Positions 1,228 to 20,972 of a stretch of DNA of 21,249 nucleotides are shown here, piece after piece (position 1 is the first letter of the stretch; the number at the start of each line of letters is the position of its first letter). The notes beneath the pieces are model-generated. The model did no database searches. It was not told where the DNA came from and saw only the letters and a list, made by a program, of their open reading frames with translations. A program made the translations under genes and the position numbers. This DNA comes from a virus, in IMG/VR virus record IMGVR_UViG_3300017776_000251, positions 1 through 21,249 of that record. The stretch is one strand, 5' to 3'.

Positions 1228-2190
1228 ATGGACATAATAGAATTAATATTAGACGAAGATAGTGAAGGGTTAACTGGAATCGAAGCAGTTAGCATTGTCG
1301 AGCTACCAGCGATAGAATCTGACTTTGTAGCACTATCAGAACAAGAAATTAAATTGGCTAAGGTAGATGGCGAGAAGCGTTTATTGATGGGAGCTGCTTT
1401 AATACCTAACAAGCCAATCTTTAGAAAGAATGGAGATAACACTTTCTATGTTTACTTTTCTGAGAAAACAGTAAGAAGGGCAAGCGAATTGTTTTTCCAA
1501 AACAGTATGCAGAATAACGCAACTTTAGAACACGAAATGGAAATTAATAACTTGACTGTTGTTGAGTCGTGGATTGTAGAAGATACTGAAATGGATAAAT
1601 CTAAAAAGTATGGTTTAAGTGTACCAAAAGGAACTTGGATGATCAGTATGAAAGTAGAAAACGAAGATGTTTGGAATGATTATATAAAAACTGGTAAAGT
1701 AAAAGGTTTTAGCATTGAAGGTTACTTTGCGGACAAAGCACAAGTAAAAGACCCAAGTTTAAAATCTGAATGGAGTAAAGAACTACAAGAGATAGAAGAA
1801 GCTGAGGCTGAATATATGCTTAGTAATATTAAGGCTTTAATTAAAAAAGACAAAAGAACTAAGTCAGGTAAAAGAACAGAGCTTGAAACATTTAACGACT
1901 ATCCTGATGCGGTAAGTAATAATGCAAAGCGAGGTATAGAACTAAATAAAAAAATAAATAATAAATGCGCTACACAAGTAGGTAAGATTAGAGCACAACA
2001 ATTAGCTAACAAAGAAAACATTAGTGTTGAAACCTTAAAAAGGATGCATAGTTATTTAAGCAGAGCGCAAGAGTATTATGATGAAGGAGATACAAAAGCT
2101 TGTGGAACTATTAGCTATTTATTATGGGGTGGTAAAGCTGGTTTAAGATGGTCTGAAAGTAAATTAAAGCAACTTGAAAAAAATAAGTAA
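1228..2190 (+). CDS. XkdF-type prohead serine protease with extra C-terminal domain
   Basis: The first ~170 residues match the XkdF-like putative phage serine protease family (Peptidase_S78_2). They begin with VSIVELPAIESDFVAL, continue with NATLEHEME (His102), then ESWIVED and YGLSVPKGTWM, and end with VKGFSIEGYF (Ser162). His102 and Ser162 are the likely catalytic residues by analogy with S78-type prohead proteases. This enzyme would process scaffold and capsid during head maturation, and the scaffold and capsid genes follow within 2.3 kb. After a charged linker (about 175-215) comes a second domain, residues 222-317, with YPDAVSNNAKRGIEL and a C-terminal YLLWGGKAGLRW; such a module is attached to assorted phage proteins and has no clear function. 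ATG at 1228 follows an A-rich leader 11 bases after the tape-measure stop. The protease call is strong; the catalytic residues are inferred. Confidence 0.85.
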   Translation: MDIIELILDEDSEGLTGIEAVSIVELPAIESDFVALSEQEIKLAKVDGEKRLLMGAALIPNKPIFRKNGDNTFYVYFSEKTVRRASELFFQNSMQNNATLEHEMEINNLTVVESWIVEDTEMDKSKKYGLSVPKGTWMISMKVENEDVWNDYIKTGKVKGFSIEGYFADKAQVKDPSLKSEWSKELQEIEEAEAEYMLSNIKALIKKDKRTKSGKRTELETFNDYPDAVSNNAKRGIELNKKINNKCATQVGKIRAQQLANKENISVETLKRMHSYLSRAQEYYDEGDTKACGTISYLLWGGKAGLRWSESKLKQLEKNK

Positions 2191-2545
2191 TAAATACTAT
2201 GACTTATTGTTGGGTGATTCTTGTGAAGACTTATTTAATTATTACAAAGTAAATTTTATTCATGGTTTAACTAAAAATGATTGTAAGTGTTATAATGAAA
2301 CTAATAATGATGCTTATATAGCTGGCATGAGCAATGAAACACCAAACAAGGAAGTAAGTAAAAAACCTTATGTATTTATTAATTTAAAAAGATTAAATAA
2401 AACCTTTGAAGATCACCTACTTTTTTTTCATGAGTTTATGCACTTGTCGTTTAGGTTGCATAACTGGGATATAAACAAAGAAGAACAGATTATTACATGG
2501 GCAGAATTAGAAACAATAAAAACAATTAAAAAACTAAACAAATGA
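2174..2545 (+). CDS. Small HEXXH zinc-metalloprotease-like protein (zincin)
   Basis: This 123-residue protein has a clear zincin motif, FFHEFMHLSF, with His86, Glu87 and His90. A downstream NKEEQIITWAELE segment (Glu103/Glu104) may supply the third zinc ligand, as in IrrE/ImmA-like peptidases. The start codon at 2174 is TTG, overlapping the protease gene by 17 bases; there is no ATG before residue 52, so TTG or another non-ATG start is required to keep the N-terminal part. No membrane segment or signal peptide is visible, so it should act in the cytoplasm. It lies between the prohead protease and the scaffold, which suggests a role in head assembly or cleavage of a host factor, but neither is shown. 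Metal binding is inferred from the motif alone. Confidence 0.65.
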   Translation: MKKISNKYYDLLLGDSCEDLFNYYKVNFIHGLTKNDCKCYNETNNDAYIAGMSNETPNKEVSKKPYVFINLKRLNKTFEDHLLFFHEFMHLSFRLHNWDINKEEQIITWAELETIKTIKKLNK

Positions 2546-2694
2546 AAAGTAAAAAATATAAAACACCAAGTAACTCAAGTCCAAGAAATAGTAGAAGAGG
2601 TTGTTTGTGTTCTGATAATACTTACAGCAGCAAATGTTGTGACGGAAGTTTACAAGCTCAAGGCATTGGAAACATAACTGGAACACCAGAATAA
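2542..2694 (+). CDS. 50-residue Cys-motif miniprotein
   Basis: The ATG at 2542 overlaps the end of the zincin gene by 4 bases and the TAA is at 2692-2694. The N-terminal half is basic and Ser/Asn-rich. It is followed by a compact cysteine cluster, GCLCSDNTYSSKCCDG (Cys21, 23, 32, 33), and a tail QAQGIGNITGT. The four cysteines could bind a metal ion or form disulfides. I recall similar short Cys proteins from flavobacterial phages but cannot verify this here. The translational overlap and the absence of stops support a real gene. Its place between the prohead protease and the scaffold suggests a minor head component or assembly factor, which is inference. Its small size makes it easy to miss in routine gene calling. 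Confidence 0.65.
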   Translation: MKSKKYKTPSNSSPRNSRRGCLCSDNTYSSKCCDGSLQAQGIGNITGTPE

Positions 2695-2759: not shown

Positions 2760-3380
2760 ATGAAAGCAAACGAAATACTAAACAAAATAAAAAATATTGT
2801 TGGTGAAAAAGTTGAACTTTCTGAAAACAAAATAGAAATGGCTGAAGTTACTTTAGAGAATGGAACTGTACTTGTTGCAGAATCGTTTGAAGCTGGTAAT
2901 TCAATATTTATTAAAACAGAAGATGAGCAAATTGCTTTACCTGTTGGTGAATATGAATTAGAAGATGGTAAAATCTTAGTTGTTGTTGAAGAAGGTTTAA
3001 TTGACAGTATTAAAGAAGCTGCTAAAGAAGAAGAAGCAGTTGAAGAAGAACTTTCTGAAGAGTCTAAAGAAGTTAAAGAAACTGAATTAGAAGAAGAAGA
3101 AAAAGAAGAAATGAACTACGTTACTAAAGAAGAATTTACATCTGCTGTTGAAGAGATCAAAGCAATGATAGACGAAAAACTTGGTAACAAAGAAGAAATG
3201 AAGGAAGAAGCAAAAGAAGAAGTTAAGGAAGAAAAAGAAGAACTTTCTGCTGTTGCTCCTGAACCTGTAAAACATAATCCTGAAGCTGAAGTTGATAATA
3301 AAATGAACTTTAAAATTTCTGAAAACAGAATTAAAACAACTAAAGACAGGGTTTTTGATAAAATTTTTAACAATAATTAA
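2760..3380 (+). CDS. Head scaffolding protein (acidic, Glu/Lys-rich)
   Basis: This 206-residue protein directly precedes the major capsid gene with an 11-base gap. Residues 25-78 look like a small beta-rich domain. Residues about 83-162 are an extremely Glu/Lys-rich region with a predicted helical segment, NYVTKEEFTSAVEEIKAMI. A basic C-terminal tail ends in TKDRVFDKIFNNN. Acidic helical proteins with a basic tail just upstream of the capsid gene are typical phage scaffolds: they shape the procapsid and are then removed, here probably by the XkdF-type protease at 1228-2190. No sequence signature is fully diagnostic, so the call depends on composition, size and position. Repeated GAAGAA codons make the DNA low in complexity. 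Confidence 0.7.
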   Translation: MKANEILNKIKNIVGEKVELSENKIEMAEVTLENGTVLVAESFEAGNSIFIKTEDEQIALPVGEYELEDGKILVVVEEGLIDSIKEAAKEEEAVEEELSEESKEVKETELEEEEKEEMNYVTKEEFTSAVEEIKAMIDEKLGNKEEMKEEAKEEVKEEKEELSAVAPEPVKHNPEAEVDNKMNFKISENRIKTTKDRVFDKIFNNN

Positions 3381-11851: not shown

Positions 11852-12177
11852 TGAATTGCTTAAAAAGTATAAAGATGGATGATCACAGTATATTGATGGC
11901 TGTAACTGCTTTAATATCCGCAATAGGCTTAAAAGAGGTTTGGAGTATATTTAAACAAAAGATTGATATTAACGCAAAGAAAGAAGAAAGAAGCGACAGT
12001 ATGTATGCTCAACAAGTTGCAGTTTTAAGTAATAAGATACAACAGCTTGAAACAAAGATTGAATTATTAATTGAGGAAAATATACAGTTAAGAGTTAAAG
12101 TTGTGAAGATGGAAGCACGTTTAATTACGAGTGCTAAGAAAAAAGTAAATAAAAGAAAAGATGAGAAAAGTAAATAA
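11851..12177 (+). CDS. Membrane-anchored coiled-coil protein (lysis accessory candidate)
   Basis: This 108-residue protein has one probable membrane segment at residues 14-34 (LMAVTALISAIGLKEVW). A coiled coil follows (about 45-92, AVLSNKIQQLETKIELLIEEN) and then a strongly basic tail (AKKKVNKRKDEKSK). It overlaps the preceding stop by one base (TAATG) and the amidase start by 17 bases, so it belongs to the lysis unit. The layout suits a spanin-like or holin-associated protein, but no diagnostic sequence exists for either. A second in-frame ATG at 11875 gives a protein 8 residues shorter and cannot be excluded. Confidence 0.6.
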   Translation: MNCLKSIKMDDHSILMAVTALISAIGLKEVWSIFKQKIDINAKKEERSDSMYAQQVAVLSNKIQQLETKIELLIEENIQLRVKVVKMEARLITSAKKKVNKRKDEKSK

Positions 12178-12676
12178 GATTGTAATACATTGTACTGCTA
12201 CCAAAGAAGGGCAGAACGTAAGTCCAGCTACTATAAAGAAGTGGCATTTAAACAGGGGTTTTTCGGACATTGGCTACCATTACATAATTTCTATTGAAGG
12301 AAAAATTAATTCTGGTAGACCAGTTTCTAAGATTGGTGCGCACGTTAAGAACGGTAATAGCGATAGCATTGGCCTTGCTTACGTTGGTGGTTTAGATTCT
12401 AATGGTAAAGCAAAAGACACAAGAACAGAAGCTCAAAAAGCATCATTAATTAAAATACTAAAAGTTTTAAAAAACATTTATCCTAAAGCGAGTATTCATG
12501 GACATAGAGACTATTCACCTGACAAAGATGGCGATGGTGTAGAGGAACATGAGTTTATGAAGCAGTGTCCTTGTTTTTCAGCTGAGGAAGAATATTTAGA
12601 TTTACAACCAAAATCATTTAAACCAAAAACTAAAAAAGCAAAAGAAAAACTAAATGGAAAAAAACAATCAAACTAA
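12161..12676 (+). CDS. N-acetylmuramoyl-L-alanine amidase (endolysin)
   Basis: This is a 171-residue zinc amidase of the Amidase_2/PGRP (T7 lysozyme-like) family, which cuts the bond between N-acetylmuramic acid and the stem peptide. The visible active site comprises His10 (VIHCTAT), Tyr39 (DIGYHY), His115 (GHRDYSP), and Lys134 with Cys136 (KQCPCF); His10, His115 and Cys136 would bind zinc. An insertion between His115 and Lys134, PDKDGDGVEEHE, resembles a calcium-binding loop and is common in Bacteroidetes amidases. The tail after residue 148 is basic and Lys-rich. There is no signal peptide, so release depends on a holin such as the one at 12767-13204. It overlaps the upstream membrane protein by 17 bases. 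Confidence 0.9.
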   Translation: MRKVNKIVIHCTATKEGQNVSPATIKKWHLNRGFSDIGYHYIISIEGKINSGRPVSKIGAHVKNGNSDSIGLAYVGGLDSNGKAKDTRTEAQKASLIKILKVLKNIYPKASIHGHRDYSPDKDGDGVEEHEFMKQCPCFSAEEEYLDLQPKSFKPKTKKAKEKLNGKKQSN

Positions 12677-15456: not shown

Positions 15457-16182
15457 ATGAAAAAGAATCACTTAAGTTACTCGGCATTGTGCCAGTTTAA
15501 AAAGTCACCAAATCACTTATTAGCTTATTGGAATAAAGAAACAAAAACAACTGATGCAATGCAGTTTGGTACAATAATACATAAGATGTTATTAGAACCA
15601 GAAACATTTGCTGATGAGTTTGCGATCTTTGAAGGTGCAAGAAGAGCTGGTAAACAATGGGTTGAGTTTAAAGAACAGAACGAAGGTAAAACACTAATTA
15701 AGCAACAAGAGTTAGACGATGCTAATAAAATAATTAACAACGCAATGTTGCATCCAGTACTAACTGAAATGATGCAGAATAAAATACAATCTGAAGTTAA
15801 ATTAGAATGGCAACATAAAGATGTTAATTTTAAGGGCTTTGCGGACCTTGTAACAACGTTTAACGGCAAGTATTGCATTGTAGATATAAAAACTACTAAT
15901 GATGCTGGTAGACGTTTTGAGCGTGACTTGTATTACAATGATTATAAAATGCAGTTAGCAATGTATCATGACCAATACGACAAAGATACAGATGCTTATA
16001 TTGTAGCAATAGAAACTACTACACCATTTAATGTTCAGATATATAAATTAGATGATAGTTTATTATTTAAAGGTTGGATGGATTACGACCATTACACTGA
16101 TAAGTTTTTAGAATGGGATGGTAAGCCACAAGGATACTCAAATAGTATAGTAGAAGTAAAAACAGAAACAGAAGAAATATGA
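15457..16182 (+). CDS. PD-(D/E)XK exonuclease (RecE/YqaJ-like)
   Basis: This 241-residue protein shows the PDDEXK_1 (exodeoxyribonuclease VIII-like) pattern. His42 lies in FGTIIHKMLLEP, Glu113/Glu117 in SEVKLEW, Asp130 in FKGFADLV, and Asp143-x-Lys145 in IVDIKTT; Gln166 is in KMQLAMYHD. These residues form the metal-dependent core that digests double-stranded DNA 5' to 3' and leaves tails for strand annealing, as with lambda Exo or RecE. The opening YSALCQFKKSP is also typical of the family. It would pair with the candidate annealing protein just upstream to repair and concatenate the phage genome. The length matches a stand-alone phage exonuclease. It overlaps the next gene by ATGA. Confidence 0.85.
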   Translation: MKKNHLSYSALCQFKKSPNHLLAYWNKETKTTDAMQFGTIIHKMLLEPETFADEFAIFEGARRAGKQWVEFKEQNEGKTLIKQQELDDANKIINNAMLHPVLTEMMQNKIQSEVKLEWQHKDVNFKGFADLVTTFNGKYCIVDIKTTNDAGRRFERDLYYNDYKMQLAMYHDQYDKDTDAYIVAIETTTPFNVQIYKLDDSLLFKGWMDYDHYTDKFLEWDGKPQGYSNSIVEVKTETEEI

Positions 16183-16352: not shown

Positions 16353-17072
16353 ATGAATAACAACAATAATATACAAATAAATGAAACTACTGATTATAGT
16401 AGATTTAAATTTTTACATGGTAATAGAAATGTGAATAAAAACCATGTACAAAGATTGAAAAACTCAATGACTAAAAATTACTTACACACTGTAATAACGG
16501 TAAACCAAAACTATGAGGTTATAGATGGTCAACATAGATTAACAGCTTGCTCAGAACTTGGGTTGCCTGTTAAATATGTCATGCTTAAAAACTATGGCTT
16601 AAAAGAGGTACAAACTTTAAATGCAATGACATCAAATTGGACTACAGGTCAATATTTAGATTCATATTGCACTAAAGGTTATCAAGATTATATTGATTAT
16701 AAAAGGTTTAAACTAAAATATAATTTATCACATAGGGAAAATATATTATTATTATGTTCACCTGATATTAGAACGCATGAAGAAAAGTTTAAAGACGGTT
16801 CTTTTAAAGTAATTAATTATAAAAAAGCGTGCTATTATGGGGATGAATTATCAAAAGTTGCTGAATTTTATAAAGGATATAATAGAAGGTATTTTGTAAG
16901 AGCTATATATTTTTTATTAAATAAGCCTGAGTTTTCTATGGATGAGTTTTTGCAAAAACTAACATTTCAAAGAACAGCACTTGTTGACTGCGTAAATAGA
17001 GATTCTTATTTATCTTTAATTGAAGAAATATACAATTATAAAAGAAGAATGAAAATTAATTTAAAATACTAA
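16353..17072 (+). CDS. ParB/Srx-fold domain protein
   Basis: This 239-residue protein has an N-terminal ParB-like nuclease (ParB/Srx) domain: residues 30-40 HVQRLKNSMTK, then TVITVNQNYEVIDGQHRLTA (46-65) with the hallmark DGQHR, followed by ELGLPVKYV. The rest is helical, rich in aromatic and basic residues (YNRRYFVRAIYFLL, YNYKRRMKINLKY), and could bind DNA. Phage ParB-like proteins act as nucleases, nucleotide-dependent clamps or regulators, and this one lacks a neighbouring ParA ATPase, so genome partition is unlikely. Its place between the exonuclease and the SSB-like gene suggests DNA processing. The domain is clear; the exact role is not. Confidence 0.75.
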   Translation: MNNNNNIQINETTDYSRFKFLHGNRNVNKNHVQRLKNSMTKNYLHTVITVNQNYEVIDGQHRLTACSELGLPVKYVMLKNYGLKEVQTLNAMTSNWTTGQYLDSYCTKGYQDYIDYKRFKLKYNLSHRENILLLCSPDIRTHEEKFKDGSFKVINYKKACYYGDELSKVAEFYKGYNRRYFVRAIYFLLNKPEFSMDEFLQKLTFQRTALVDCVNRDSYLSLIEEIYNYKRRMKINLKY

Positions 17073-18383: not shown

Positions 18384-19237
18384 TAGTTAACAAAGAAGAT
18401 AACTTAAAATACTTATACGCTTTTAAGGAAGGTAAGATTAAACGTGGTTTAGAAATTGGTAACGAGTTTGACAAGTGGTATGTTCACAAGCGTGGCAGCT
18501 TTACAGTAATTGTTGGCTTAGATAATGTTGGTAAAACTTTTTTTATGTTATGGTATTTTTTATGCTTAAGTATTAAACATAATGTAAAGTGGTGCATTTG
18601 GTCTGGTGAAAATAGTTCTGGACAATTAACAAGAGATTTAATTCAAATGTATGCACAATGTAAATTAAGTGAGTTAAGTAAAACTAAAATTGATGAATAC
18701 AACAATAAGATTTCAGAGTGGTTTACTTTTGTAAGTAATAAAAAAATGTACAATCATAAAGACTTATTAAAAATATTTAAGCAAAGTAATTGCGATTCAT
18801 TTGCGCTTGATCCTTTTACAGGTTTAAACCATGATAGAAGAGTTAATCAATATGAACGTAATTATTTAATATGTAATGACATAAGAGACTTTTGCAATAC
18901 TACAGGTAAATCAATTTATGTAATGACACATCCAATGACAGAATCTGCAAGAAGAGTATTTCCACCCAACCATGAATATGCTGGTTATATACAACCACCA
19001 AGAAAATCTGATGTTGAAGGTGGTCAAGTGTTTGCGAATAGATGCGATTCTTTTCTTTCGATACATAGGTTTATTAATTCACCTGAAAGCTGGATGATGA
19101 CACAAGTAAGAGTAGAGAAAATAAAAGACAAAGAAACTGGAGGAACACCAACTCTTGATAAACCACTATGTTTTGATTACAATGGTGGACTTGGTTTTAC
19201 AATTGGTGGTAATAATGTACTAAAACAAAAACAATGA
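18380..19237 (+). CDS. RecA/DnaB-fold ATPase (probable replicative helicase-like)
   Basis: This 285-residue P-loop ATPase has a Walker A motif G46-LDNVGK-T53 (FTVIVGLDNVGKTFF) and a Walker B motif at 139-146 (DSFALDPF, Asp144). A sensor-like VMTHP follows (181-185), and then SDVEGGQVFANRCD (210-223), as in DnaB/RepA/AAA_25-type enzymes. It is about half the size of DnaB because it lacks the N-terminal primase-binding domain. It would unwind DNA or load onto the origin with the initiator-like protein, whose gene it overlaps by ATGA. A RecA-like recombinase or a KaiC-type ATPase is a less likely alternative. It ends in a 4-base overlap with the methyltransferase gene. Confidence 0.75.
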   Translation: MIVNKEDNLKYLYAFKEGKIKRGLEIGNEFDKWYVHKRGSFTVIVGLDNVGKTFFMLWYFLCLSIKHNVKWCIWSGENSSGQLTRDLIQMYAQCKLSELSKTKIDEYNNKISEWFTFVSNKKMYNHKDLLKIFKQSNCDSFALDPFTGLNHDRRVNQYERNYLICNDIRDFCNTTGKSIYVMTHPMTESARRVFPPNHEYAGYIQPPRKSDVEGGQVFANRCDSFLSIHRFINSPESWMMTQVRVEKIKDKETGGTPTLDKPLCFDYNGGLGFTIGGNNVLKQKQ

Positions 19238-19238
19238 A
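19221..19238 (+). repeat. 18-base repeat spanning a start codon (copy 1; copy 2 at 19873-19890)
   Basis: TAAAACAAAAACAATGAA is present identically at 19221-19238 and 19873-19890. In both places the ATG is the start of a gene (methyltransferase at 19234, unknown protein at 19886). In copy 1 it is also coding for the last residues of the ATPase. A related TTAAAACAATGA occurs at 20114-20125. It probably reflects a preferred A-rich translation-initiation context or a duplicated leader. Confidence 0.5.
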
Positions 19239-19875
19239 GATATTAAATTTATATGCTTGTTTAGGTGGTAACCGATACAAGTGGGATGAAGTTACAGATA
19301 TAGAAGTAACTGCTGTTGAATTAGACCCAGAGGCAGCAAGATTGTACCAAGAGAGGTTTCCAAATGATAAAGTAATAGTAGCAGATGCTCACCAATATTT
19401 GTTAGACAATTATAAGGAATTTGATTTTATTTGGAGTAGTCCACCTTGTCCAACACATAGCAGAATGAATTTATCTAATGTTAATAAAATAAAATTAAGC
19501 TATCCAGATATGAAACTGTATCAAGAGGTGATATTTTTAAAACAGTTTTTTAAAGGCAAATATTGTGTCGAAAATGTTGTGCCATATTATGAGCCGCTAA
19601 TACCATCAAATAAAAGAGGCAGACATTTATATTGGACTAATTATAACTTGCCTAATAATTTAGGTGAAAGAAAAAGTGTTGACTGGTCAAGAATAAAAAA
19701 TGAAATAGATGCTTGGTCTAAATTTCACAATTATGATTTTAGAAAATACAAAGGCGAACAAGCAAGAAGAAAAATAGCAAGAAACTTAGTAGACTATGAA
19801 GCTGGTAAAACAATATTAGAAACAGCAGTAGGAATAGTAAGAAAACAAAATGTAAACCAAACAGAATTATTTTAA
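19234..19875 (+). CDS. Short C5-cytosine DNA methyltransferase
   Basis: This 213-residue protein carries the C5-methyltransferase motifs in order: motif I (LYACLGGNRYKW), ELD at 29-31 for S-adenosylmethionine binding, motif IV SSPPCPTHS (68-76, catalytic Cys72), motif VI ENV (113-115) and RGRHLYWTN (128-136). A family member of normal length is 300 or more residues; here the target-recognition region after motif VIII is short, a form common in phages. It would methylate cytosine in phage DNA, perhaps to escape host restriction. No restriction endonuclease partner is nearby, so it is probably an orphan. The motif I variant (CLGGNR instead of FxGxGG) is slightly unusual. It overlaps the ATPase by ATGA. 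Confidence 0.8.
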   Translation: MKILNLYACLGGNRYKWDEVTDIEVTAVELDPEAARLYQERFPNDKVIVADAHQYLLDNYKEFDFIWSSPPCPTHSRMNLSNVNKIKLSYPDMKLYQEVIFLKQFFKGKYCVENVVPYYEPLIPSNKRGRHLYWTNYNLPNNLGERKSVDWSRIKNEIDAWSKFHNYDFRKYKGEQARRKIARNLVDYEAGKTILETAVGIVRKQNVNQTELF

Positions 19876-20471: not shown

Positions 20472-20625
20472 AAAAAGGTCTTTAAATGAATACAGACAAA
20501 CAAAGGACTCGTATTATATTAACCATGATACTCCTGTTGAATATAGTATTAATTTTTTGTGTAGGTTATATACTAATGACGCTGAACTTGGAGCAATAAT
20601 TAGAAAACATTTTCAAAAGTTATGA
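20464..20625 (+). CDS. Unknown 53-residue early protein
   Basis: The ATG at 20464 overlaps the membrane microprotein by 8 bases, and the TGA at 20623-20625 overlaps the nuclease start (ATGA). The product is basic at the N-terminus (NKKRSLNEYRQTKD) and helical at the C-terminus (TNDAELGAIIRKHFQKL). There is no membrane segment and a single cysteine, Cys33. I do not recognise a family. The tight overlaps are the best evidence that it is expressed. Confidence 0.5.
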   Translation: MNKKRSLNEYRQTKDSYYINHDTPVEYSINFLCRLYTNDAELGAIIRKHFQKL

Positions 20626-20972
20626 GTTTAAATGCAAATCAAAAAGGTAAAAGGTTCGAGCTAAAAATTGCAAAAGATTTAGCAAAGAAGTTTGACACAA
20701 ATATAAGAAGAACACCAAACTCAGGTGGATTAAGTATTAAAGGAGATATTCTAACAACAAGTGGCATACTATCTGAGTATAGTTGGGAATGTAAAAATCA
20801 AGAGAAGCTCAATATCTGGAAAGCACTGGAACAAAGTAAAAACGATGCTCTTGGTACTATGAAAAGCCCTGTGGTTGTGTTTACTAAAAACTTTGAAGAC
20901 GATTACATTGCTTTAAAATACGATGATTTTGTAAATATACTTCTTGAATTAAATGAGTACAGAAGTAAATAA
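20622..20972 (+). CDS. PD-(D/E)XK nuclease, Holliday-junction-resolvase-like
   Basis: This 116-residue protein shows the minimal PD-(D/E)XK core in Hjc-like order: Glu13 in KGKRFELKIAKDLAK, Arg/Pro/Gly-rich RRTPNSGG, Asp42 in KGDIL, and Glu56-x-Lys58 in SWECKNQ, then a Gln/Ser-containing helix (KALEQSKNDA). Such proteins cleave four-way DNA junctions or other branched DNA, a need during phage replication and packaging. VRR-NUC-type or Vsr-like nucleases are possible alternatives. Its size fits a resolvase dimer subunit. The ATGA overlap with the upstream gene, and a 20-base overlap with the sigma-like gene, place it in the same operon. Confidence 0.7.
   Translation: MSLNANQKGKRFELKIAKDLAKKFDTNIRRTPNSGGLSIKGDILTTSGILSEYSWECKNQEKLNIWKALEQSKNDALGTMKSPVVVFTKNFEDDYIALKYDDFVNILLELNEYRSK

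Follow-up and report, generated by a model that had tools for sequence, protein, structure and literature searches.

The window studied here (the whole stretch of DNA analysed, a 21,249-bp virus record; IMG/VR IMGVR_UViG_3300017776_000251, positions 1 to 21,249) comes from an uncultured phage and carries a small predicted zinc peptidase of the zincin type, encoded inside the head operon (Table 1). A second protease-like gene between an XkdF-type head maturation protease and a scaffold-like protein raises the question of what its product would cleave, and the initial annotation had proposed either a capsid component or a host defence or repressor protein. The open reading frame (ORF) on which that proposal rested was recovered exactly where it had been placed, with its TTG start and an intact HEFMH motif. 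Close relatives occur in eight IMG/VR contigs (69–99% identity); L001–L005 keep the TTG, and the TTG start of the window gene is taken as correct because L006, L007 and L008 have ATG at the same residue 1. The window zincin is confirmed as a real gene: pairwise dN/dS values of 0.06–0.28 (15 comparisons, 6 sequences) indicate a protein under selection and not a chance ORF. Among 701 distinct stop-to-stop ORFs of 100–200 aa from L001–L160 and the window, HEXXH occurs in six, all of them members of the zincin family, and the zincin gene is the only one with this motif among the 64 window ORFs of at least 60 aa. Its hydropathy reaches a 15-residue maximum of 0.66, the N-terminus stays below 0 and no membrane or signal segment is present; being devoid of a hydrophobic segment, the protein should remain cytoplasmic. 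Translation would probably proceed via coupling to XkdF.

The head-module order in the loci is XkdF, Cys-rich ORF, scaffold and capsid. The Cys-rich ORF, which has no match in PHROG or Pfam, is present with or without the zincin, the exception among the 24 loci listed being L057; in L011 and L114 it bears an additional C-terminal His/Cys-rich stretch (~75 aa). The scaffold label reflects position and composition. The family phrog_24921 (349 positions) also matches XkdF, over its positions 10–173, and a 349-aa CDS with a protease match abuts the capsid CDS in Nonlabens phage P12024S, an isolate; from these alignments, protease and scaffold seem to be fused in some flavophages and split in the window. 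The C-terminal domain of XkdF (residues ~212–320) recurs at ~29–42% identity in unrelated phages and haloviruses, within proteins whose annotation is portal, major capsid protein or prohead protease.

Table 1. Position of the zincin gene, its conserved residues and its neighbours in the window.
Feature	Position	Strand	Evidence
XkdF-type (Peptidase_S78_2) head maturation protease with C-terminal extra domain, upstream neighbour	1228..2190	+	PF14550, E 2.8e-17
Zincin-type accessory gene	2174..2545	+	123 aa; TTG start; overlaps XkdF stop by 17 nt; AF2 pLDDT 96.1
His30-Gly31-Leu32, invariant N-terminal motif	2261..2269	+	102/102 aligned (6 of the window group and 96 from the C-terminal motif scan)
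Gly51..Asn54..Pro57, invariant motif	2324..2344	+	102/102, same aligned set
Asn70, invariant, end of strand 66-70 preceding the active-site helix	2381..2383	+	102/102 and 85/85; strand from model
HEFMH motif, residues 86-90 (His86, Glu87, His90), predicted zinc ligands and general base	2429..2443	+	H, E, H in 85/85 N-terminally selected ORFs listed
Glu103/Glu104 codons	2480-2485	+	ORF translation
Glu104, predicted third zinc ligand, next helix	2483..2485	+	52/52 in A2 (EE in selecting pattern); 85/85 N-terminally selected (unselected for Glu104)
Glu111, conserved acidic residue, two helical turns past Glu104	2504..2506	+	51/52 and 85/85
50-aa Cys-rich ORF (RGCLC..NTYS.KCCDGSLQAQGIG; CLC..CCDGS..AQGIG), downstream neighbour	2542..2694	+	In 23/24 loci listed
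Scaffold-like protein	2760..3380	+	Matches positions 199-336 of phrog_24921

Invariant residues and predicted fold

A degenerate DNA pattern (HExxH, a spacer and EExxIxWA) was scanned over viral contigs and yielded at least 119 stretches; all 119 ORFs listed from this C-terminal motif scan, the window group itself accounting for five of them, match the six-sequence window-group profile (worst E 1.4e-12). Since that pattern held C-terminal residues alone, the N-terminal residues provide an independent test of the family, and their invariance is given in Table 1. A pattern containing HEXXH cannot itself test the conservation of HEXXH, and for this reason a scan with an N-terminal-motif-only DNA pattern was added, giving at least 88 further ORFs beyond those of the first. 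In this second set HGL, GxxNxxP and Tyr48 are present through selection; the pattern also requires Met29, where the window group has Ile, so that it samples the wider family only.

Conservation of HEXXH in relatives, the check put forward with the zincin proposal itself, holds in 85 of these 88 ORFs, none of them chosen on that motif, and the proposal stands. The three ORFs lacking it comprise two cut by the contig end (L289 and L300) and one (L312) with an in-frame TGA upstream of the motif. In L312 the TGA immediately precedes an intact HELCH..EEEIITWAE, and sequencing error, decay or recoding are all possible; reading TGA as a sense codon raised the amino-acid count of long open stretches from 1122 to no more than 1200, and the locus was kept as a lone interrupted copy. 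His86, Glu87, His90, Glu104 and Glu111 are invariant in the 85 N-terminally selected ORFs listed (78 distinct sequences), whereas position 103 is Glu in 74 and Ser in 11 of the 85, and Trp109 is also variable. The third ligand had been sought in the Glu103/104 pair; being invariant, Glu104 is the better candidate across the family. In the proposed mechanism, His86, His90 and Glu104 would hold one Zn2+ and Glu87 would activate water, while the strand ending at Asn70 would present the substrate. His30 is a candidate pocket residue that would line the site, and Glu111 a possible second-shell residue or alternative ligand.

The metal site could also be real and serve something other than proteolysis, as in another zinc hydrolase or a metal-binding inhibitor. 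No activity is known for the family, and no solved structure is matched significantly, both of which suit such a role; on the other hand, Glu87, the expected catalytic base, is as invariant as the ligands, which at the sequence level would argue for catalysis, and we regard a non-protease function as unlikely.

The fold was predicted with AlphaFold2. An earlier six-sequence prediction (pLDDT 71) was too poor and its structure search was set aside; with 52 family members (alignment A2; 116–144 aa, starts chosen by the analyst), pLDDT reached 96.1 and pTM 0.88. This model comprises strands at residues 2–5, 10–14, 51–54 and 66–70, the HEXXH helix (78–95) and the helix bearing Glu104 (100–122). 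The top Foldseek match in BFVD, A0A6J5MV28 [uncultured Caudovirales phage], is the nearest predicted structure to the window zincin (E 3.0e-8, TM 0.83/0.81, 30% identity over 126 columns); uncharacterized and unannotated itself, it likely belongs to the same family. A phage PolyVal metallopeptidase is among the weaker BFVD matches (E 0.023, probability 0.96), and SprT-like proteins appear among the BFVD matches below significance. A Foldseek search of the PDB with the 52-member model gave none at E≤0.001, and among the 280 chains listed by VIA the best hit was the zinc metalloprotease domain of BlaR1, weakly aligned (Z 2.6, rmsd 4.6, 75 aligned). Motif conservation and the predicted fold together support a zincin-type assignment of the window protein.

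Among sequence models, the M3 oligoendopeptidase model TIGR02289 was touched by 10 of the 52 members (best E 8.9e-6), which is read as a hint only. Other models were discarded as grounds for membership: FBPase_3 (12/52, best E 0.0003) was reached by weak single-relative matches, and eIF5 W2 (5/52), PhageMetallopep (2/52, best 0.015), phrog_513, phrog_37955 and phrog_87 metallo-protease (best E 0.00091, 0.0017 and 0.023) were likewise weak and left unused. The SprT-like model does not match the window protein, touches one of 10 other members at 14.4 bits (cut-off 25.6) and one of the 52 at E 0.091. Profiles of 6 and 52 rows searched against PDB sequences reached E 0.093 at best, on eIF5, which is taken as chance. 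The window protein has no match in Pfam (checked up to E 10), PHROG or NCBIfam; three members including it have none in INPHARED (50,697 phage records), and one member searched against plasmids has none there. GTDB genome contigs returned nothing for the queries A1 and XkdF, in a search that needs exact short motifs and reaches close relatives only.

By sequence, then, the window protein belongs to a large, widespread and unnamed family of tiny predicted zinc peptidases in uncultured tailed phages. The superfamily is well known, and none of the three libraries scanned contains a model that covers the window protein. A similar layout is described for MPTase-PolyVal, a zincin-like MPTase domain found in polyvalent proteins of phages and plasmids, in which a sheet is followed by the HEXXH helix and a helix with a conserved Glu, with an additional conserved upstream His in some clades (PMC5512222). 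The modelled layout of the window zincin resembles it, and the BFVD fold match carries that name. The window protein differs in being the product of a small stand-alone gene instead of a domain of a large multidomain protein, in the two strands that its model places ahead of the first helix, and in its own invariants (HGL, GxxNxxP and Asn70); moreover, of the 25 Pfam families that at least one of the 52 members matches at E≤1, none is MPTase-PolyVal. A gluzincin-type layout, predicted for the window zincin, is shared with M3 oligoendopeptidase, SprT-like proteins, minigluzincins and the BlaR1 peptidase domain, but the window protein itself matches none of the four and the fold match is not significant. 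Among flavophages, Maribacter phage Molly encodes a 199-aa zinc metallopeptidase described as having a lipoprotein domain and as possibly degrading extracellular matrix (PMC8776804). This is likewise a small zinc peptidase; in contrast, the window zincin has no hydrophobic N-terminus, and it has no match in the phage collection. No description of the zincin family was found in the literature searched, a body that mostly leaves out subscription papers and part of which was available as partial text.

Patchy presence and changing position

L012 and L092, with XkdF proteins 96% and 95% identical to that of the window, lack the zincin; against these two loci it stands out as a clean insert of one gene, placed between XkdF and the Cys-rich ORF. 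Among 47 distinct XkdF loci, six have the zincin, eight have another gap of more than 300 bp (in L011 this "long" gap is the extended Cys-rich ORF), and 33 have a shorter one. The corresponding tree was built from the first 300 residues of these 47 distinct sequences, leaving aside truncated loci and weaker matches: each sequence had to score at least 400 bits, have an identifiable start and be followed by scaffold or capsid. Its supported branches force at least three gains or losses of the zincin. Presence on the tree is more clustered than expected by chance (7 of 500 shuffles were as low), and identities to the L006–L008 group agree between the zincin (69–73%) and XkdF (73% for two of the three contigs). 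Based on this clustering and agreement, the zincin may be a long-standing gene of this lineage that some members have lost, and not a freely moving one. It would be an accessory gene of the phage, acquired or shed as one unit, and the window copy would occupy a cargo slot between head protease and Cys-rich ORF. A second accessory slot lies between the Cys-rich ORF and the scaffold, where minus-strand ORFs of 64–146 aa run against the direction of the head operon; such unrelated ORFs fill the long gap in nine loci (L029, L035, L043, L116, L126, L135, L144, L151 and L160), the same one being found in L029 and L126.

These data bear directly on the proposal of a head-morphogenesis protease that would trim capsid or scaffold together with XkdF. 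The order XkdF-zincin-scaffold is found in the window and in seven of its eight close relatives, and in the eighth (L005) the zincin follows XkdF and the contig ends ahead of the scaffold, all of which is what such a role would predict. Nevertheless, the zincin is missing from 41 of the 47 distinct XkdF loci, L012 included; in Nonlabens phage P12024S the protease-match CDS abuts the capsid CDS, and the window zincin has no match in the collection that contains this phage; and in phages with related head genes (L241, L235, L257 and L358) the zincin lies ~3–5 kb past the portal match and so at kilobase distances from both protease and scaffold. With presence in so few XkdF loci, absence from L012 and a location away from the head genes elsewhere, the head-assembly reading fails, and we hold the capsid-trimming role once suggested for this gene to be highly improbable. 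The probable site of action of the zincin is the infected cell and not the capsid, and its placement among head genes looks incidental.

In the wider family, presence is patchy and position changes from phage to phage. Family loci extend to ~15 kb at most, so that absence from a locus does not equal absence from a genome. Window-type head proteins match in 19 of the 207 family loci listed (in L181 and L215 via the XkdF C-terminal domain only), and the zincin adjoins XkdF or the Cys-rich ORF in the window group only (L164, L172, L204, L208 and L273). Neighbours were counted in 200 of these 207 loci and include no universal partner gene: the most frequent neighbour family is found at 43 of the 200 and the most frequent directly adjacent one, which matches phrog_3704 (moron, auxiliary metabolism and host takeover; E 5.7e-67), in 22. 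Near subfamily A loci a DnaB-like cluster (23/115) and a second helicase cluster (20/115) are found, and a nucleotide-kinase-like family is also among the neighbours.

Part of this setting would suit a cytosolic peptidase linked to lysis at the end of infection. The zincin lies one to four ORFs after cell-wall peptidase genes, namely Peptidase_M15_3 in L216 (E 5.5e-18), Peptidase_M15_4/VanY in L257 (E 3.7e-19) and, in L358, a protein just under the CHAP cut-off (E 3.4e-5), of which L353 has a look-alike. Yet the zincin has no membrane or signal segment, the window amidase (12161–12676) is 9.6 kb away from it, and the neighbours of other subfamily A loci are the helicases mentioned above; a lysis-linked function is accordingly rated as improbable.

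Candidate target of the peptidase

The explanation that we favour, with a confidence slightly above even, is that of a soluble accessory peptidase whose target would lie in the cytoplasm and would in all likelihood be a host protein. It would most likely cleave a protein of the host or of a rival element in the infected cytoplasm, for counter-defence or takeover; a target of this kind is preferred because the protein has no hydrophobic segment and the gene has no universal partner, and accessory distribution and changing position likewise fit a target in the host cell or in a competing element. Of the two roles offered by the initial annotation, the second, directed against a protein of host defence or a repressor, is the direction favoured by our analysis. 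Besides the clustered presence on the XkdF tree and the PDB search with no significant fold match, other observations count against the favoured explanation: the cell-wall peptidase genes upstream in L216, L257 and L358 are left unexplained by a host-protein target, and an HTH-like gene in 17 of the 200 loci suits the regulatory peptidase considered below.

IrrE/ImmA proteins (Peptidase_M78) are small HEXXH peptidases of mobile elements. By analogy, the zincin could have a regulatory role, cleaving a transcriptional repressor of phage or host and thereby switching lysis-lysogeny or a stress programme. The size class and the logic of HEXXH plus Glu-helix are the same, one of the 52 relatives touches Peptidase_M78 (E 0.0088), and subfamily B has an AEDEAN stretch which we take to resemble the EREAN motif of M78. 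The HTH-like neighbours form a weakly supported cluster (cluster 20; HTH_60 E 0.03, under cut-off), mostly at -4, some four ORFs ahead of the zincin. Against this, the cluster is adjacent in none of the 200 loci and missing from most of those examined, so that, unlike in the IrrE/ImmA case, no adjacent repressor gene is established; the window protein is unmatched by Pfam, Peptidase_M78 included, and PF06114 finds nothing within the window. A repressor-cleaving switch seems to us rather unlikely, if less so than most of the other roles weighed here; it and the lysis-linked function are the chief competitors of the favoured explanation.

A more specific version of the host-protein explanation can be tentatively put forward, although we doubt it in its full form: the unnamed mini-zincin family might be interchangeable phage cargo, each copy using proteolysis to disable a protein of host defence or regulation, and the window copy might be made late, protecting progeny or blocking rivals. 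Late production is suggested by its slot in a head-operon region that holds different accessory genes in related phages.

To our knowledge, a host target has been established for only a few phage proteases. The zincin family is common in viral metagenomes (at least 119 plus at least 88 ORFs), yet the window protein is unmatched in three libraries. For the search for targets it would offer a small enzyme, predicted with confidence, in which Glu87 is the evident residue to mutate for an inactive form, and it marks an accessory-gene region within a flavophage-type head operon. Its significance would be less if it proved a housekeeping regulator or a lysis helper; the fold itself is unsurprising, and the interest of the family lies in its tractability. 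Elsewhere, the window also encodes a PDDEXK-like DUF3799 nuclease (15457–16182, E 4.9e-25), a GmrSD_N match under cut-off (16353–17072, E 2.8e-6), a match to the N-terminal part of C-5 cytosine DNA methylase (19234–19875, E 8.8e-9) and a phage PDDEXK endonuclease (20622–20972, E 6.6e-20).
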